Part shown: positions 34,994 to 42,313 of the stretch, piece by piece
Position numbering within the stretch: the first letter of the stretch is position 1
How the letters are laid out: every line of letters starts with the position of its first letter
Assembly: GCA_902615425.1 (NCBI GenBank)
Contig: CACMPD010000001.1
Location: 62,001 to 126,000 of the forward strand
Reading direction: 5' to 3'
Source: an uncultured Pelagibacteraceae bacterium
GTDB taxonomy: Bacteria > Pseudomonadota > Alphaproteobacteria > Pelagibacterales > Pelagibacteraceae
DNA: 64,000 nt
Translations under genes and position numbers: made by a program
The notes under the pieces: model-generated
What the model saw: the letters and a program-made list of their open reading frames with translations, nothing else
Told to the model about the DNA's origin: nothing
Databases searched by the model: none

Positions 34994-37471
34994 ATGACAA
35001 AAAATAAAATTACAGCTGTCCTTGGCCCAACAAATACAGGTAAAACTCATCTTGCTATTGAGACTATGCTGTCGTTTGACACTGGAATGATAGGTTTTCC
35101 TTTGAGATTATTGGCTAGAGAAGTTTACGACAAGATAATTAAAAAAGTAAGTTTAGATAAAGTTGCATTAATTACTGGTGAAGAAAAAATAATTCCTACA
35201 AATGCAAAGTATTATCTGTGTACTGTTGAGTCTATGCCTATTGATAAAGAATTAGATTTTGTAGGCGTAGATGAAATTCAAATGTGCGCAGACCATGAGC
35301 GAGGTCATATTTTTACAGACAGATTATTGAACTTAAGAGGAATAAAATTAACAATGTTAATGGGATCAAATACTATAAGACCAATTATTTCTAATCTTGA
35401 TGATGACATCGAATTTATAAATCGAACTAGACTTTCAAAACTTTCTTATGTTGGTCATAAAAAAATTTCAAGAATTCAAAGAAAAACTGCAATTATAGCA
35501 TTTTCTGCAGAGGAAGTTTACGCCATCGCTGAACTTATAAGAAGACAAAAAGGAGGAGCTTCTATTGTTATGGGATCTCTAAGCCCAAAGACAAGGAATG
35601 CACAAGTAGAGCTGTATCAATCTGGAGATGTTGATTTTCTGGTCGCAACTGATGCTATTGGTATGGGAATTAATATGGATCTTGATCACGTTTATTTTTC
35701 CAATTTAAAAAAATTTGATGGAAAAAAATTAAGAAAGCTAAATTTAGCAGAAATTGGACAAATAGCTGGTAGGGCAGGAAGATATTTGAATAATGGAAAT
35801 TTTGGTATAACAGGAGAATGCAAAGAAATAAATGCTGATGAAGTAGATTTATTGGAAAATCATAAATTTGAAGGGATCCAATCTTTATTTTGGAGAAATT
35901 CAAATTTAAATTTTGAGAGTCCTTTTAAATTATTAAAGTCTTTAGAGGAAAAGCCTAATAGAAGATGGTTAAGAAAAATACATGAGTGCGAAGATGAAAA
36001 AGCCTTAAAATTTTTTTTAAGAGATAAAAATTTGGAAAATATTAAATTTGATAAAGATAAATTAAGTCTTTTATGGGAATGTTGCCAAATACCAGATTTT
36101 GTTAAAAAAACCTATGGCAATCACTACGAAGTGATTGAAAATGTTTTTAAATATTTAACAAGTGAAAAGGGTAAAATTACAGATGATTATATGCGACTTC
36201 AGCTCGTCAAACTTGATAAATTAGATGGAAATGTAGATTCTTTATCAAATAGAATTGCAAATGTAAGAACTTGGTCATATGTTTCAAATAAAAATAATTG
36301 GATAGAAAATCAAAACTATTGGATAGAAAAAACAAAACACTTAGAGGACAAGTTATCAGATAGATTACATGAGGAGCTTACAAAAACTTTTATTGACAAA
36401 AGGGCAAGTGTCCTAGCAAGAGGCTTAAAGCAAGATATGGAATTTGATACTAAAATTTTAGAAAATAACGAAGTAATGATTGATGATCAATTTATTGGAA
36501 AGATAAATGGACTTAAATTAGAACTAGATTTAAAAAAGGGTGCTTTAGAGACAGATATCAAATCGCTCAAAAAAGCAGCAAGACAGACAGTTGGTCCAGA
36601 ACTTCAAAAAAGAATAGATACAATAACCGAGACAGGTTTAATAGAACTAAACGAGGATTTTAAAATTTATTGGAGAAAGTCTCCAATAGCAAAATTGCAA
36701 CCAGGTAGAGATTATTTAAATCCAAATATCATTCTTATAGTAGATGATATCCTGGAAACAGATCAATTAAAAAAATTAAATAATTATTTAGTGAAATGGC
36801 TAAAAAATAAAATACAAAATGTTTTGAGCAGTTTAATTGATTTAAGAAACCTTAAGGAAAAAAATTCATCAATTAAAGCTCTTTCATATCAATTGTATGA
36901 GAACAATGGAGTCCTTCAAAGAAATCAAGTTACAGATTATCTAAAAATATTAGGACAAAATGAGAGGAAATTTTTGAGAGATCAAGGAGTAAAATTTGGA
37001 AGATATCATGTATTTTTACACAAATTAATCAAACCAGAGGCTGTGTCCTTAAGAACTTTACTTTGGAAAAATTATCATCAAAAATATTTTAATTTAAAAC
37101 CTCCTGTGTTTGGTTTAAATTTTTTAGAAAACGACAAAATTAAAAACAGAAATTTTATGTTACTTTGTGGATTTGAGAAATTTGACAATTTTTACGTAAG
37201 AATTGATATTTTAGAGAGATTATTTGTTCAAATTATTAATTCAAACACAGAAAAGAATGAAATTAAGTTAATTCCTGAAATGTTGAATTTACTTGGATGT
37301 AATAAGGACAACTTTAAAAAGCTTTTAAAAATTATGGGTTATAAAGTTTTTGAAAAAAATAATGATATATTTTTTAAATACAATCCAAGAAAAAGCTCAA
37401 AAAAAGTAAGTAAAAAATTCATCAAAGAAAGTCCTTTTAAGGTGTTAAAAAATTTAAATTTAAACCAGTAA
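34994..37471 (+). CDS. SUV3-like superfamily 2 helicase
   Basis: An 825-residue ATP-dependent helicase of the alphaproteobacterial SUV3/MgpS-like group, related to mitochondrial RNA helicase SUV3. Motif I is GPTNTGKTH (10-18), motif II GVDEIQMCADHERGH (a DExQ box, about 90-104), motif V ATDAIGMGINMDLDHV and motif VI QIAGRAGRY. The C-terminal half is helical and lysine-rich and has no recognised domain. The context helicase-(small gene)-fdxA-carD is typical of alphaproteobacteria. RNA unwinding is inferred from homology only. Confidence 0.9.
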   Translation: MTKNKITAVLGPTNTGKTHLAIETMLSFDTGMIGFPLRLLAREVYDKIIKKVSLDKVALITGEEKIIPTNAKYYLCTVESMPIDKELDFVGVDEIQMCADHERGHIFTDRLLNLRGIKLTMLMGSNTIRPIISNLDDDIEFINRTRLSKLSYVGHKKISRIQRKTAIIAFSAEEVYAIAELIRRQKGGASIVMGSLSPKTRNAQVELYQSGDVDFLVATDAIGMGINMDLDHVYFSNLKKFDGKKLRKLNLAEIGQIAGRAGRYLNNGNFGITGECKEINADEVDLLENHKFEGIQSLFWRNSNLNFESPFKLLKSLEEKPNRRWLRKIHECEDEKALKFFLRDKNLENIKFDKDKLSLLWECCQIPDFVKKTYGNHYEVIENVFKYLTSEKGKITDDYMRLQLVKLDKLDGNVDSLSNRIANVRTWSYVSNKNNWIENQNYWIEKTKHLEDKLSDRLHEELTKTFIDKRASVLARGLKQDMEFDTKILENNEVMIDDQFIGKINGLKLELDLKKGALETDIKSLKKAARQTVGPELQKRIDTITETGLIELNEDFKIYWRKSPIAKLQPGRDYLNPNIILIVDDILETDQLKKLNNYLVKWLKNKIQNVLSSLIDLRNLKEKNSSIKALSYQLYENNGVLQRNQVTDYLKILGQNERKFLRDQGVKFGRYHVFLHKLIKPEAVSLRTLLWKNYHQKYFNLKPPVFGLNFLENDKIKNRNFMLLCGFEKFDNFYVRIDILERLFVQIINSNTEKNEIKLIPEMLNLLGCNKDNFKKLLKIMGYKVFEKNNDIFFKYNPRKSSKKVSKKFIKESPFKVLKNLNLNQ

Positions 37472-37474
37472 GTA

Positions 37475-37888
37475 ATGTTTTTTAAAGAAAAAAAAGGAGA
37501 TACTAAAACTAGTGATTTAGCAAGAGTTGCGGCATTATTGATTCATGCCGCAAAAATTGATGAGAACTTCTCAAAAGAAGAAGAGGTTATAATAAGTAAA
37601 GCACTTTTGAAAATAGGTGCAGACCAAGATAATTTAGAAAATATTTTAAAAGAGGGTAAAGAAATAGAAGAAAACTCTAACCAAATTTTGGATTTTACAA
37701 GGGAAGTTAAAAATATGGATGATAAAAAAAAAATTGAAATTATAGAAACCCTTTGGAGAATAATTTACTCAAATAAAGAAGCAGATGTGTTTGAAACTAA
37801 TTTGATGAGACGACTTGCAGGCTTATTGTATATTGACAATAAGATCATGGGAGATATCAAAGAAAAAATTAAAAAAGAAAATCAATAA
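37475..37888 (+). CDS. TerB-like protein
   Basis: A 137-residue, all-helical acidic protein of the TerB/DjlA-like fold, with [24 protein letters not shown] (a TerB-type start, in shorter pieces [12 protein letters not shown] and FSKEEEVII) and a repeat-like second half [15 protein letters not shown]. Such domains are often found near membranes or metal-stress genes, but the specific role is unknown. It starts three bases after the helicase stop and overlaps fdxA by one base, so it is cotranscribed. In related alphaproteobacteria I recall an S4-domain gene at this position. Confidence 0.82.
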
Positions 37889-38214
37889 TGACATATATTG
37901 TTAATGACAAATGCATTAAATGTAAGTTAATGGACTGTGTTGAAGTTTGCCCTGTAGATTGTTTCTATGAGGGAAAAAATATGCTTGTAATTAAACCTGA
38001 TGAGTGTATAGATTGTGGCGTTTGTGAGCCTGAGTGTCCTGTTGATGCAATAAAAGCTGATACAGAGCCAGGATCTGAAAAATGGCTAGAGATCAATAAA
38101 CAATATTCTGAAATCTGGCCAAATATAACAGTTAAAAAAGATCCTCCATCGGATCACGAAAAATATAAAGATGAGCAAAATAAGTTTGAAAAGTATTTTA
38201 AAGAAAACCTTTAA
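37888..38214 (+). CDS. fdxA: 7Fe ferredoxin FdxA
   Basis: A 108-residue bacterial ferredoxin with one 3Fe-4S and one 4Fe-4S cluster. Cysteines fall in [17 protein letters not shown] (about 10-26) and [16 protein letters not shown] (about 40-55), the standard FdxA pattern with the long C-terminal tail ([17 protein letters not shown]). It carries single electrons in the cytoplasm; the partner is unknown. It follows the TerB-like gene by a one-base overlap. Its last 44 bases are overlapped in another frame by the start of carD. Confidence 0.95.
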
Positions 38215-39043
38215 AAAAAGTAAAGCTACTAAATCGAAAAAAAAGGCAAAAACCAAAAAGATTATTAAATTAAAAAAAGTAAAAAAGAAGATTAATAAAT
38301 TACCAAAAAAATTAATTAAGACTAAAAAAATACCTTTAAAAAAATCTATAAAATCTGAGGTCAAAACTACAGAACAGAAAAGTGATGGTTTAAGAATTAC
38401 AAAAAATAATGAGGCTAAACCAGAAATTAAAAAAGTAAAAAAACAAGAAACAGAAAAAAGAGAATATAAAATTAAAGATTACGTCGTATACCCAAAACAT
38501 GGTGTTGGGCAAATTACTGAATTTAAAAAAATAAATATTGGAGGAATAGACGTTGAAACTTACGTTATAAAATTTGAAAAAGATAAAGCAAATGGAATGG
38601 TGCCTGTTAATAAACAATTACACTTAAGACCATTAGCTACTATCAATCAGGTAAATAAATGCATCTCAATATTAAAAAGTAAGCCTAAAATAAAAAGATC
38701 TATGTGGAGTAGGAGAGCACAGGAATATGAAGCAAAGATTTCATCAGGTAAGATTTATGAGCTAGCTGAAGTAGTAAGAGACCTTAATAAGGGGGATGAT
38801 TTGATGGTTGACCAATCTTATAGTGAAAGACAATTGTTTGAAAAAGCATATGAAAGAATCCTTTCAGAATTTCAAATAATTCTAAATTTGTCATTAGAGG
38901 ATACTCAAAAAAAATTGGATAAAGCTTTAAAAAGAAACTTAAATACTCAACCTAAACCAGAAGCAGCACCAATAAAGCAAGCTTCATCAGATTTACCTGA
39001 AGAAGAGGCTGTTTCAGAAAATGAAGAAGATATAGAGGAATAA
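38171..39043 (+). CDS. CarD-family regulator with Lys-rich N-terminus
   Basis: A 290-residue CarD/CdnL-type protein that binds RNA polymerase beta and stabilises open complexes. The CarD-RID part is near residues 98-150 ([32 protein letters not shown]) and the C-terminal helical DNA-binding part follows ([21 protein letters not shown], in shorter pieces). Alphaproteobacterial CarD proteins are usually near 170 residues. Here about 90 extra N-terminal residues are almost entirely Lys/Ile/Thr/Ser, a histone-like basic tail. The ATG at 38171 lies inside fdxA; a TTG at 38186 is an alternative. The tail length is not fully certain, but the domain call is secure. Confidence 0.9.
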
Positions 39044-39048
39044 AAAAA

Positions 39049-39087
39049 AACGCCTCTCACACGTAAATCGTTATGAGAAGCGTTTTT
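39049..39087. terminator. Bidirectional Rho-independent terminator
   Basis: The inverted repeat AACGCCTCTCA / TGAGAAGCGTT (11 bases with one mismatch, loop of about 14) is flanked by a T run on the plus side and by an A run that reads as a T run on the minus side. It lies between the stop of carD and the stop of the convergent 25-residue peptide gene, so it can end both transcripts. It is the only clear intrinsic terminator in the window. Confidence 0.85.
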
Positions 39088-39106
39088 AATAAAGAATACT
39101 AAGTAA

Positions 39107-39184
39107 TTATCTTCTTCTTCTTTTCTTAGCTTTTTTCTTAGCTTTTTTCTTAGCCTTCTTTGCTTTTTTTCTTCTCTTAGGCAT
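39107..39184 (-). CDS. 25-residue Lys/Ala/Arg-rich peptide
   Basis: A very short but well-supported gene. The product starts MPKRRKKAKKAKKK and ends AKKRRRR; apart from the initial Met and Pro it contains only Lys, Arg and Ala, with a KKKA repeat. The DNA has a 12-base tandem repeat (39121-39163). A strong GGGAG ribosome-binding site lies six bases upstream of ATG, stronger than for most genes here. A promoter (39236-39264), a palindrome (39209-39224) and a terminator (39049-39087) surround it. It resembles histone H1-type tails or tiny ribosome-associated proteins (for example bTHX or AURKAIP1/COX24-like), but I cannot assign a family. Confidence 0.72.
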   Translation of the reverse strand: MPKRRKKAKKAKKKAKKKAKKRRRR

Positions 39185-39208
39185 CTTTAGCTCCCTTTTT
39201 AAGTTAAA

Positions 39209-39224
39209 CGAATCAATTGATTCG
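39209..39224. promoter_or_regulatory. Perfect 16-base palindrome, possible operator
   Basis: The sequence CGAATCAATTGATTCG is a perfect palindrome placed just after the predicted transcription start of the 25-residue peptide gene and 24 bases before its ATG. It could be a repressor operator or a small 5' hairpin. In this AT-rich region the central GC-bearing symmetry stands out, but a chance palindrome cannot be excluded. Confidence 0.5.
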
Positions 39225-39235
39225 CTATTAATCTA

Positions 39236-39264
39236 TTTTTATTTTTTTATGTGCCTTATGTCAA
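39236..39264 (-). promoter_or_regulatory. Predicted sigma-70 promoter of the 25-residue peptide gene
   Basis: On the minus strand a perfect -35 TTGACA (39259-39264) is followed by a 17-base spacer and a -10-like TAAAAA (39236-39241, four of six matches). The start would fall near 39229, giving a leader of about 45 bases that contains the palindrome and the GGGAG site. Upstream DNA to 39384 is almost pure A/T, which would fit an UP-like element. Confidence 0.5.
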
Positions 39265-39384
39265 ATCTTAAATTTTTAAGAAAATTTTTAAAATAAAATT
39301 TAAATAAAAATTTTTTTTTAAAAAAATTTAAATTGTAAAAAAGTTAGTGTTTATGCGCATAATAATCAAATATTTTGTAAAAAA

Positions 39385-41082
39385 TTAATAAAGTTTTTCT
39401 AAATCTTCTTTATATTTTTCTAGAATTTTTTTTCTTTTTAGTTTTAAAGTTGGTGTTAACATTCCATTTTCAATTGTAAATTCTTCTTTAATTAATTTTA
39501 TTTTTTTTACTCTCTCAACAAGAGATAAGTTTTTATTTAGATCATCTATATATAATTCAATTTCTTTTTCATTTTTTTCACTATCACTTACAATTAAAGC
39601 AACTAAATAAGTTTTTTTGTCTCCATAAACAAAACTTTGTTTAATTTTGTCGTCAAGACACAATAAATTTTCAATTTTTGAGGGTGAAATGTTATCACCA
39701 CCAGAATTCACAATAATTTCTTTTTTTCTGTCAGTAATTTTCAAATTTCCCTCTTTTGTAATTTCACCTATGTCTCCTGTGTGTAACCAACCATTTTTAA
39801 GTATATCGTCTGTTTCTTTTTTCATGTTCCAGTAACCAAGCATTACATTTTCACCTTTAACCAGAATTTCACCATCCTGTGCAATCTTCACCTCATTAGT
39901 TTTAAAAGGAGGTCCAACTGTATCAATCTTGATTTTTTCAGGTATATTGCAACTTACTACTGGAGATGCTTCTGTTAGGCCATAACCTTGTAAAGTTGGC
40001 AGTCCAATAGAATTCAAAAATTCACCAATTTTTTGATCTAACGCACCCCCTCCAGAAACAAAAGCCTTTAAATTTCCGCCAAACTGATTTTTGATTTTTC
40101 GTCTTACTAATTTTTCACATAAATAATTTAGTATTTTTTCTCTTAAGCTCATATTCTCATTATTTAGTTTTTTTATTCCAAGCAAAATCGTTAAAGATAT
40201 TAATTTTTTCTTGAGACCTGTTTGTTTTGAGAAATTAATCGAAATCTTGCTATACAAATTTTGATAAAATCTAGGTACAGCAGTCATTATAGTTGGTTTA
40301 GCAACTGACATATTAGATAATAATTTTTCTAAACTTTCAGCATAATAAATTTTTGCTCCTAATGTGATTTGTACAAATTGAACAGCATGTTCATATGAAT
40401 GAGATAAAGGTAGCCAAGTCAAAAAAACAGGCTCACTATCTTTAACTAACGAATTCAAAATTTCTTGCGCACCCTCACAATTAGATAAAATACCCCCATG
40501 ACTCAGCATTACACCTTTAGGGTTACCAGTTGTTCCTGATGTGTAAATGATACAAGCTATATCTTTTCTTTCAATATTTTGGTTAAAGCTTAAATGATCT
40601 AAGGTTTTTTCTTTAGAAAATCTCTCAAAAATATTTTCTATACTATCAATTTGTTTATTTATATTTTCTATTGATAAAACTTTTATTTTATCTGAAATGA
40701 ATTTATCTATTTTTTTTAGTTGAGTATTATTTGAAACAATACAAATTTTTGGATTACAATCATTAATGATATATTCATAATCTTTTTCAGAGTAAGTTGT
40801 AAATAAAGGAACTGTTACCCCACCAGCGTTCATTATAGCTATATCAGAAATAAGCCATTCAGGTCGATTTTCAGATAATAAAATGCACCTATCCCCTTTG
40901 GATAAATTTTTTCTTAAATATTCAGATAAAATTTGAATATTTCTTTCAACTTGTTTCCAAGTAAGAAAATCTTTCTCATTATCCTTTAACCACTTTAAAA
41001 ATGGCTTATTAGAAGTAAAGTTTGACTCCTTATACTTCGTGAAAAAAAGTTCTACTAAACTGTTAATTTTACTTAATTCCAT
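39385..41082 (-). CDS. Long-chain acyl-CoA synthetase (AMP-forming)
   Basis: Activates fatty acids to acyl-CoA through an acyl-adenylate. The 565-residue protein has the AMP-binding P-loop IIYTSGTTGNPKGVMLSHGG (about 178-197), the YGLTEASPV motif, the hinge region GWLHTGDIGEITKEGNLKI and DRKKEIIVNSGG near the C-terminus. The architecture matches FadD15/FAA-type long-chain synthetases. It is monocistronic by position, between the peptide gene region and tRNA-Leu. The chain length used is unknown. Confidence 0.93.
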   Translation of the reverse strand: MELSKINSLVELFFTKYKESNFTSNKPFLKWLKDNEKDFLTWKQVERNIQILSEYLRKNLSKGDRCILLSENRPEWLISDIAIMNAGGVTVPLFTTYSEKDYEYIINDCNPKICIVSNNTQLKKIDKFISDKIKVLSIENINKQIDSIENIFERFSKEKTLDHLSFNQNIERKDIACIIYTSGTTGNPKGVMLSHGGILSNCEGAQEILNSLVKDSEPVFLTWLPLSHSYEHAVQFVQITLGAKIYYAESLEKLLSNMSVAKPTIMTAVPRFYQNLYSKISINFSKQTGLKKKLISLTILLGIKKLNNENMSLREKILNYLCEKLVRRKIKNQFGGNLKAFVSGGGALDQKIGEFLNSIGLPTLQGYGLTEASPVVSCNIPEKIKIDTVGPPFKTNEVKIAQDGEILVKGENVMLGYWNMKKETDDILKNGWLHTGDIGEITKEGNLKITDRKKEIIVNSGGDNISPSKIENLLCLDDKIKQSFVYGDKKTYLVALIVSDSEKNEKEIELYIDDLNKNLSLVERVKKIKLIKEEFTIENGMLTPTLKLKRKKILEKYKEDLEKLY

Positions 41083-41086
41083 AATT

Positions 41087-41171
41087 TGGTGGGCGAAGAG
41101 AGAATCGAACTCTCACTTCTTGCGAAACACGATTTTGAGTCGTGCGCGTCTACCAGTTCCGCCATTCGCCC
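41087..41171 (-). tRNA. tRNA-Leu (CAA)
   Basis: On the minus strand an 85-base class II tRNA is seen with acceptor GGGCGAA paired to TTCGCCC, a D arm containing GGTAGACGC, anticodon loop CTCAAAA with anticodon CAA, a long variable arm, T loop GTTCGATTC, discriminator A and an encoded CCA. It reads UUG. A 9-1-9 AT palindrome (41177-41195) lies immediately upstream. Confidence 0.97.
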
Positions 41172-41229
41172 TAGTTATTTAATAATTTATTAAATAGTAT
41201 AAGAACTAAAATTATATTAAAACCAAAAA

Positions 41230-41835
41230 ATGTTTAAAAGTCTTTACAAAAAATGTTTAGATTTAGCAGCTCACAAAAGTTCTAAATATTATTTGGCAAT
41301 AGTCTCCTTTATTGAAAGTTCATTTTTTCCTATTCCGCCAGATGTAATGGTTATTCCAATGGTAATATCAAAAAAAAATGATTTTATTAAAATCTTTCTT
41401 ATAACTACAATTTTTTCAGTTTTGGGTGGTATGCTTGGTTACTTAATTGGTGCGTTTTTTTTTGAATTTGGAGCACACATTATGAGTTTTTATGGTTATG
41501 AGGACAAGTTATCAAAAATTAAAGAAAACTTAGTTAATAGTAATGGTTTTTATGCTTGGTTAGGAGTACTTTTTTTAGCTGGTTTCACTCCTCTTCCATA
41601 TAAAGTTTTTACAATTGCAAGCGGCTTGATAGGATTTAATTTTTTAATCTTTGTTTTAATAAGTTTAATTTCCCGAGGATTAAGATTTTTCATTGTATCA
41701 TACCTTTCTTATAAGTTCGGTAATTTATTTAATGAATATATGGATAAGCATGGGTCAAAATGGTTTACAATAATTGGAATATTAATTGTTATTATTGGCT
41801 TAATAATTTATCTGATATTTAAATCTCATGTTTAA
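41230..41835 (+). CDS. YqaA/DedA-family membrane protein
   Basis: A 201-residue inner-membrane protein with about four to five helices. SFIESSFFPIPPDVMVIPMV (about 27-46) and LAGFTPLPYKVFTIASG (about 119-135) match the YqaA branch of the DedA/VTT family, proposed lipid scramblases or transporters of undecaprenyl phosphate or other lipids. Activity is not established for this branch. The end overlaps dsbB by eight bases. Confidence 0.88.
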   Translation: MFKSLYKKCLDLAAHKSSKYYLAIVSFIESSFFPIPPDVMVIPMVISKKNDFIKIFLITTIFSVLGGMLGYLIGAFFFEFGAHIMSFYGYEDKLSKIKENLVNSNGFYAWLGVLFLAGFTPLPYKVFTIASGLIGFNFLIFVLISLISRGLRFFIVSYLSYKFGNLFNEYMDKHGSKWFTIIGILIVIIGLIIYLIFKSHV

Positions 41836-42313
41836 TCTTAAAGCTGAAATTTACTTGAGAATAATTTTTCTATTTAGTTTAATAGCTTTGATTTCTGCTT
41901 ATTTTATAGAACATGTTCTAGGACACCAACCATGTAATTTATGTTTGATAGAGAGAATCCCTTATGGGTTAAGTATAATTTTGATATCTCTAATGTTTAT
42001 TATAAAAAAAAATGAAAATTTCTTTATTTTGCTTTTAATACTTACTTTTATTTTTTCTTTTTTTATTTCATTGTATCATTTCGGCATAGAACAAGGTATT
42101 TTTCAAGAATCAACTGTTTGTGGCGTAAAAAACTTTTATGAGAATATAAGTAAAGAGGAATTACTAAATAAACTTAGCGAAAAGACTATAAGCTGTAAAG
42201 ATGTGACATTTAAGATTTTAGGATTATCACTTACTACTATTAATATTGTAATAAGTATATTATTTATTATAACCCTGGTAAAAATTTTTACTAAATATGA
42301 AAAGAACAAATAG
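41828..42313 (+). CDS. dsbB: Disulfide bond formation protein B
   Basis: Inner-membrane quinone reductase that reoxidises periplasmic DsbA. The 161-residue protein has four hydrophobic segments, the first redox pair C36/C39 in HQPCNLCLIER and a second pair C98/C123 (STVCGV, ISCKDV) in the long periplasmic loop. The ubiquinone it uses would be made with the adjacent coq7 gene, which it overlaps by 17 bases. No dsbA is in this window. Confidence 0.9.
   Translation: MFNLKAEIYLRIIFLFSLIALISAYFIEHVLGHQPCNLCLIERIPYGLSIILISLMFIIKKNENFFILLLILTFIFSFFISLYHFGIEQGIFQESTVCGVKNFYENISKEELLNKLSEKTISCKDVTFKILGLSLTTINIVISILFIITLVKIFTKYEKNK

Follow-up and report, generated by a model that had tools for sequence, protein, structure and literature searches.

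SAR11 bacteria (Pelagibacterales) possess, throughout the order and in single copy, a small protein gene that has only 25 codons in the present genome, where it lies between carD and an AMP-binding ligase gene. Comparative sequence analysis establishes, in our view, that the gene exists and codes for protein, that it has longer relatives in other genera, and that its leader carries the TGATTCG motif and a predicted hairpin. The product is probably a minimal nucleic-acid-binding polycation whose synthesis would be timed by the cell cycle, and the explanation that we favour, and hold to be rather probable, is a minimal H1-tail-like polycation gene under methylation-linked promoter control, the peptide serving to compact the nucleoid. 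SAR11 bacteria are the most abundant heterotrophs of the ocean, with streamlined genomes and few regulators; the loci examined across the order have nevertheless retained a nitrogen-costly peptide and its control signals, except at contig ends, in one frameshifted gene and at one chimeric junction.

The window, by which we mean the whole 64-kb stretch of DNA that was analysed, belongs to a genome (G000) of 1.06 Mb in 40 contigs that is 80% complete and whose closest named relatives are single-cell genomes of Pelagibacteraceae. The 25-residue unit lies on the minus strand, and its elements and neighbours are the following:

39259–39264, minus strand: −35 hexamer TTGACA, read from the sequence and conserved in the leaders
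39235–39241, minus strand: probable −10 region TAAAAAT, placed by invariant leader positions
39209–39224, minus strand: perfect 16-nt palindrome CGAATCAATTGATTCG, composed of two inverted TGATTCG copies, read from the sequence
39185–39196, minus strand: near-invariant AGGGAGCTAAAG of leader alignment A1
39191–39195, minus strand: Shine-Dalgarno sequence GGGAG, inside AGGGAGCTAAAG
39107–39184, minus strand: 25-aa ORF MPKRRKKAKKAKKKAKKKAKKRRRR, an H1-tail-like or protamine-like polycation by sequence and conservation
39046–39087, both strands: two-way intrinsic terminator hairpin predicted by folding, common to the 25-aa gene and carD
38171–39043, plus strand: convergent carD/cdnL-like neighbour (Pfam CarD_C 4.5e-19, CarD_TRCF_RID 9.8e-13)
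39385–41082, minus strand: AMP-binding ligase gene (Pfam)

An earlier, sequence-only reading of this DNA had described the TTGACA hexamer, the 16-nt palindrome, the GGGAG site and the Lys/Arg/Ala ORF, and all of these are present at 39107–39264; the two-way terminator that it postulated is also found, just beyond the limits it had given. The terminator hairpin folds at −21.9 kcal/mol on the minus strand and −16.7 kcal/mol on the plus strand, and its type, ACGC...GCGTTTTTT, recurs at the terminator position (every third locus of the genus inspected, and other relatives). The same reading had judged so many matched signals unlikely by chance. For the unit as a whole this is borne out because the unit is conserved; taken singly the elements are not rare, since promoter-like sites in 36000–42000 are no commoner than in shuffled sequence (29 against 32.3 ± 5.7), the window holds three perfect 16-nt palindromes and our terminator scan did not call the hairpin at 39046–39087. 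The motif AGGGAGCTAAAG occurs once in the genome, and all 67 sequences of alignment A1 share leader positions T24, A25 and A27. With a transcription start at 39229, as the spacing from the −35 hexamer suggests, the palindrome would lie at about +6 to +21 and the transcript would be some 190 nt long rather than the approximately 120 nt expected earlier. Downstream of the stop codon, at 39088–39105, a stretch like CTTAGTATTCTTT is well conserved in much of the genus.

We detected the carD protein in 118 of 151 genomes of the genus and examined the DNA downstream of it in all 118 (30 loci and 88 regions). An intact ORF of 21–35 codons (MAKRRKKAKKKAKKKAKKRRRRR and MPKKRKKAAKKTKKKAKKKAKKKAKKRRRK are examples of the peptide) directly follows carD on the opposite strand in 114 of these 118 loci, and the gene stands beside carD in each of the ten genera that we sampled from the order; conservation in close relatives, on which the sequence-only reading had staked its case, is thus what was found. 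In the other four loci the contig ends inside the ORF (G001, G004), the ORF is frameshifted and stops after 16 codons (G068), or carD is joined to the ligase region at a chimeric junction (G117). Named Pelagibacteraceae loci carry the ORF in 79 of 80 cases, the exception (L200) ending with its contig. A model of the leader (R1), built from 67 sequences and searched independently of carD, matches 164 of 247 genomes of the order, with one match per genome. By itself R1 reaches three of the ten genera (g1, g5, g6), the remaining ones having been found through carD. In seven closed genomes of the genus (G012, G082, G153, G155, G161, G163, G165) the sole R1 match adjoins carD, and among 13 genomes of the genus that were checked because they gave no R1 match, 11 also had no carD and two had a contig end near or within carD.

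Substitution patterns reveal coding selection, as the earlier description of a coding unit implied. Comparison of ORFs in 39 nearest-neighbour pairs gave 61 codons with a single change, of which 43 were synonymous, where those base changes would lead one to expect 23.4. Codon position 3 took 42 of 67 changes; the other two frames gave no synonymous excess (1 against 16.6 and 18 against 17.4). Of 21 residue differences, 19 exchanged Lys and Arg and two Ala and Lys. The truncated G068 ORF was kept in this test and excluded from the composition statistics, which over 44 distinct peptides of the genus gave 54% Lys, 19% Arg and 18% Ala, or 73% Lys plus Arg. Proline is absent from these peptides except, as a rule, at position 2. 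Their uncharged residues recur mostly every 3–4 positions, so that a helix would carry them as a one-sided stripe; the helical moment at 95 degrees is 0.689 against 0.371 for shuffled peptides (the z-value being inflated by kinship), and the periodicity is weak or absent in other genera.

The heptamer TTGACAT opens the leader in 110 of 114 loci of the genus; contig ends truncate the other four. Our leader set comprised 147 loci from ten genera, 143 of them with at least 100 nt upstream (G125 was left out), and all 143 have 38–42 nt from TTGAC to CGAATC and contain TGATTCG (CGAATCA when read on the opposite strand) at least once. In the genus, 79 of 110 leaders contain the motif in both orientations and 31 in one. 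A separate count over 79 leaders gave 156 copies against 0 elsewhere; these leaders are related, so that no probability can be attached to this figure. The palindrome, whose presence and perfection had been noticed earlier and whose meaning had been left unexplained, is a paired TGATTCG motif that doubles as the stem of a predicted 5′ RNA hairpin.

TGATTCG (YGAKTCK) is the extended GANTC motif through which GcrA activates transcription near start sites in Caulobacter (PMC7987155), and GANTC methylation has been reported in Pelagibacter (PMC9516812). The window genome encodes GcrA (PF07750, E 1.4e-38), which was detected in 53 of 58 genomes of the order, and GcrA may be the reader of the TGATTCG site. 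As at the GcrA/CcrM promoters of Caulobacter, the extended motif is found near the start, here a presumed one. In contrast to those promoters, the SAR11 site lies at or downstream of the presumed +1, which counts against GcrA control, and in most leaders of the genus it is present in both orientations; the setting also differs in that the window genome holds only 18 copies of the motif. Further points against GcrA are that it was not detected in five of the 58 genomes, all of genus g7, one of which (G154, 99% complete) nevertheless keeps the leader and the motif, and that the GcrA model also matched Sulfolobus among 14 control genomes. According to the account in PMC7987155, Brevundimonas GcrA does not favour the extended motif, and few of the orthologous genes in Pelagibacter were judged likely to be GcrA-regulated.

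The palindrome could instead be the operator of an unknown dimeric regulator with no relation to GcrA and CcrM. The perfect dyad in the window, the double orientation in most leaders of the genus and the retention of the motif in G154 would all suit such an operator. It is nonetheless unlikely, since the spacing between the half sites varies within the genus, all 33 leaders of the nine other genera have one full copy only, and the heptamer corresponds exactly to the extended GANTC motif, single copies of which also stand before clpX and clpP.

The other copies of the motif are few. There are 18 in the window genome against 39 for the reversed control, and within the window TGATTCG occurs only as the two copies of the palindrome. 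By mechanical ORF calling, nine of the remaining 16 are inside ORFs and seven outside, with a start codon 5–110 nt further on; these seven belong to clpX, clpP, recA, a CoA-ligase-like gene and three others. The copy 5′ of the acetate/propionate–CoA ligase-like gene lies opposite a gene that is rhodopsin-like by eye (no NCBIfam hit). Apart from those at clpX and clpP, the intergenic copies (L364, L363, L361, L367 and L354) are the one at recA, the one at the CoA-ligase/rhodopsin-like pair, one in front of a 123-aa ORF, one that separates UDP-diacylglucosamine-diphosphatase-like and lipid-kinase-like genes, and one in front of a Lys/Glu-rich ORF. The clpX/clpP loci (L358, L359, L370–L399) were fetched for 30 of 38 ClpP-bearing genomes among 40 searched, and TGATTCG stands before clpX in 30 of 30 loci from eight genera, at most 90 nt from the start that our script selected; for clpP the count is 12 of 30. 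Apart from the motif, the sequences upstream of clpX and clpP are dissimilar. The low count for clpP and the nine copies inside ORFs speak against our preferred reading. These TGATTCG sites are nevertheless likely to mark a small order-wide regulon of the GcrA/CcrM type, and the site in the leader offers a concrete, testable entry into methylation-timed gene control in SAR11.

The nature of the peptide is best seen from its longer relatives. Elsewhere in the family 14 of 14 loci carried the gene, with peptides of 21–24 aa in g5 and g6 (for G216 the length runs from its own ATG), 31–38 aa in g2 and g3 and 34–58 aa in g4, the longest of which, 58 aa in G296, contains AKKKPAAKKRKPAAKKKAPAKK. In the sister family (g7–g10), 13 of 16 loci carried it (the contigs of the other three end just after carD), and so did 6 of 6 further loci; one stretch of 172 bases (L310) was left out of the scan. 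The sister-family peptides measure 40–99 aa, start with MEELK or MEDLK and continue in KAAPKKK-type repeats. Length thus changes with repeat number while the frame is kept, from 21–35 aa in the genus through 21–58 aa in the other genera of the family to 40–99 aa in the sister family, and since position, orientation, promoter and leader elements are common to the short and the long forms, they are most simply one gene. The earlier description of the product as histone-tail-like gains substance from these syntenic relatives, whose KAAPKKK repeats have the composition of histone H1 tails, and the window peptide apparently represents the short, proline-poor and more basic end of a histone-H1-tail-like, protamine-like series. 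The change from the H1-tail-like to the protamine-like form would then be a reduction, a direction that we infer. The label "H1-like" rests on composition, repeats and synteny. No form that was tried matched a curated family (Pfam gave one unrelated hit at E 8.5, NCBIfam none), so we do not assign the peptide to a named H1-like family and claim only that it works like one.

Protamines, the Arg-rich sperm proteins of eukaryotes, are about 30 aa long and mostly basic. The SAR11 peptide resembles them in being short and mostly basic and differs in its dominant Lys and spaced Ala, and no homology is claimed. Among bacterial proteins, Chlamydia Hc2 (HctB) and Bordetella BpH1 are likewise low-complexity chains rich in Lys and Ala (and Pro), and in Hc2, too, size follows repeat number while the frame is preserved (PMC2848022). 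Hc2, as described there, has 165–237 aa with two charged residues per pentamer, in contrast to the 21–35 aa and 73% Lys plus Arg of the genus peptide, which is more basic than the known bacterial H1-like proteins; unlike Hc2 and BpH1, the SAR11 gene is marine and has its own conserved GANTC-type promoter site. The C-terminal domains of Pseudomonas AlgP and PhaF share the KPAA-type repeats and the H1-tail composition and are reported to bind DNA (PMC9239181). These domains, however, are tails of larger proteins, whereas in SAR11 the tail is the whole protein and, in the genus, nearly free of proline.

Small ribosome-associated proteins such as bTHX, bS22 and bL37 offer another model, in which the basic chain would thread into rRNA, and the sequence-only reading had mentioned it. 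Size, charge, the Met-Ala/Pro start, the strong ribosome-binding site, the single copy and the order-wide retention are all consistent with it. We consider it quite unlikely, because the length ranges over 21–99 aa by gain and loss of repeats, there is no fixed core sequence, composition rather than sequence being kept, and the gene stands alone with its own promoter. The 25-mer had no PDB match up to E = 10, which is a weak test with so short a query, and the single PDB match of an 85-aa form was to a ribosomal protein L29 chain at E 0.52. A polycation might also have a polyanion other than DNA as its partner, for instance polyphosphate or condensed RNA. Unspecific charge would fit any polyanion, and Pseudomonas AlgP with its H1-like tail localises to polyphosphate granules (PMC9239181). 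This seems very unlikely to us, as the named neighbours in the window (part of its genes were identified) include no polyphosphate gene and the other sites of the motif include clpX, clpP and recA.

The leader RNA deserves separate attention. A 5′ hairpin is predicted for the leaders of every one of the ten genera; some of its pairs have changed, G-U pairs occur and the loops vary. In the genus the stem is CGAATC/GATTCG with loops of 3–5 nt in most leaders inspected, and it is shorter in G042. A G-U pair replaces a G-C pair in five of six leaders of g5 and g6, a different right arm pairs in another register in g2, g3 and g4, and in the sister family outer pairs are lost and inner pairs gained. 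Mean folding z-scores range from −1.5 to −8.1 across eight genera (at most 12 leaders each, many of them alike), the leaders of g8 and g9 having been folded without z, and for the full leader of G357 an alternative fold is marginally better. Covariation within the 67 genus leaders is no better than in shuffles, and the case for the hairpin therefore rests on the other genera. Variable spacing and G-U pairs favour an RNA structure over a DNA operator. A second structure is predicted in part of the order: in g2 and g4 a CUCC stretch would pair with the Shine-Dalgarno region (probability 0.97–0.99), and in the folded representatives of the sister family a second structure abuts the Shine-Dalgarno sequence; the folded leaders of the genus have neither. 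The leaders concerned are L304, L306–L309, L159, L160, L162, L164–L166 and L169–L184, and translational control in the sister family and in g2 and g4 is possible on the strength of these folds.

With so much of the leader near-invariant, the 5′ hairpin in all ten genera and the conserved 3′ stretch in part of the genus, the RNA itself might be the functional product, regulatory or dual-function, and the peptide minor. The strong synonymous bias in the ORF and the differences in ORF length by whole codons among genera make this highly improbable, and the lowest Rfam E-value was 0.058, far below the gathering score of that family. The role of a leader peptide or attenuator is rejected, as the unit has no co-directional gene downstream and carD converges on it.

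For the preferred reading, a minimal nucleoid polycation, we propose the following course of expression, timing, binding and compaction. Sigma-70 polymerase would transcribe a monocistronic mRNA of about 190 nt. GcrA would modulate initiation at CcrM-methylated GANTC sites beside +1 and in this way tie the output to replication, and the 5′ hairpin may protect or regulate the mRNA. The peptide would lie along DNA (or RNA) and, like histone H1 tails and protamines, neutralise its charge regardless of sequence; in a cell as small as this it would thereby help to compact the nucleoid. If the peptide is indeed a nucleoid polycation, it shows how far a protein of the H1 type can shrink and still be retained, and, if the presumed direction is right, it would be a bacterial case of reduction from an H1 tail to a protamine-like form. 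A bolder version, which we put forward only tentatively, is that of a SAR11 bacterial "protamine", perhaps the shortest chromosomal protein of the H1-tail type (21–35 aa), kin to the H1-tail-like protein of 40–99 aa and replication-timed by a minimal GcrA/CcrM regulon that includes clpX, clpP and recA.

Outside the order, carD was present in 123 of the 142 class genomes sampled, two of which are from the order. Of the 121 non-order genomes with a match, 68 loci (28 and 40, the second lot favouring small genomes; two stretches were shorter than 300 bases) were scanned beside carD, and no comparable ORF was accepted there, while the positive control found 12 of 12 loci of the order. Seven ORFs that passed a loose composition filter were dropped as counterparts: an Arg/Lys/Pro-rich ORF of 24 aa in L266 lies on carD's own strand over the 5′ part of carD, and the other six contain Cys, Leu, Trp or similar residues. 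The gene may stand elsewhere in these genomes. The 85-aa form, a low-complexity query, had no hit in protein searches across the class, not even in G000 and G151, so that this result carries no information. A 211-bp query had no match in a phage collection, and viral contigs contained no exact match to the leader.

In the accessible portions of the literature on SAR11 and alphaproteobacterial small or nucleoid proteins and on H1-like proteins, no account of the peptide was found, and the gene is not treated in those of PMC5324124 or PMC8707726. Ordinary proteomics could miss it, because trypsin cuts Lys/Arg peptides to pieces. The catalogue of GC-rich SAR11 intergenic regions by Meyer 2009 (PMC2704228) names, in its available parts, no region as beside carD, and many flanking genes are given there only as "hypothetical". 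Stav 2019 (PMC6429828) describes, for intergenic regions of SAR11 HIMB5, at least three short ORFs without a defined function, and the gene beside carD may be among them.

Lys-rich tails recur on several proteins of the order. The carD product of the window has such a tail of about 85 residues at its N-terminus (38171–38430) and an acidic C-terminus, and many of the class-level carD matches start only downstream of this tail; a study of an HMGA- and histone-H1-like domain in a bacterial transcription factor reportedly concerns CarD of Myxococcus. BLAST hits of the peptide on contig C14 of the window genome were rejected as homologues, being low-complexity matches to a FecR-like protein (by eye; L036, about 696–1960) that ends in some 150 residues of Lys-rich, H1-tail-like repeats. 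In several genomes of the order (L370–L399) the DNA just 5′ of clpP can also be read as a Lys-rich C-terminal tail.
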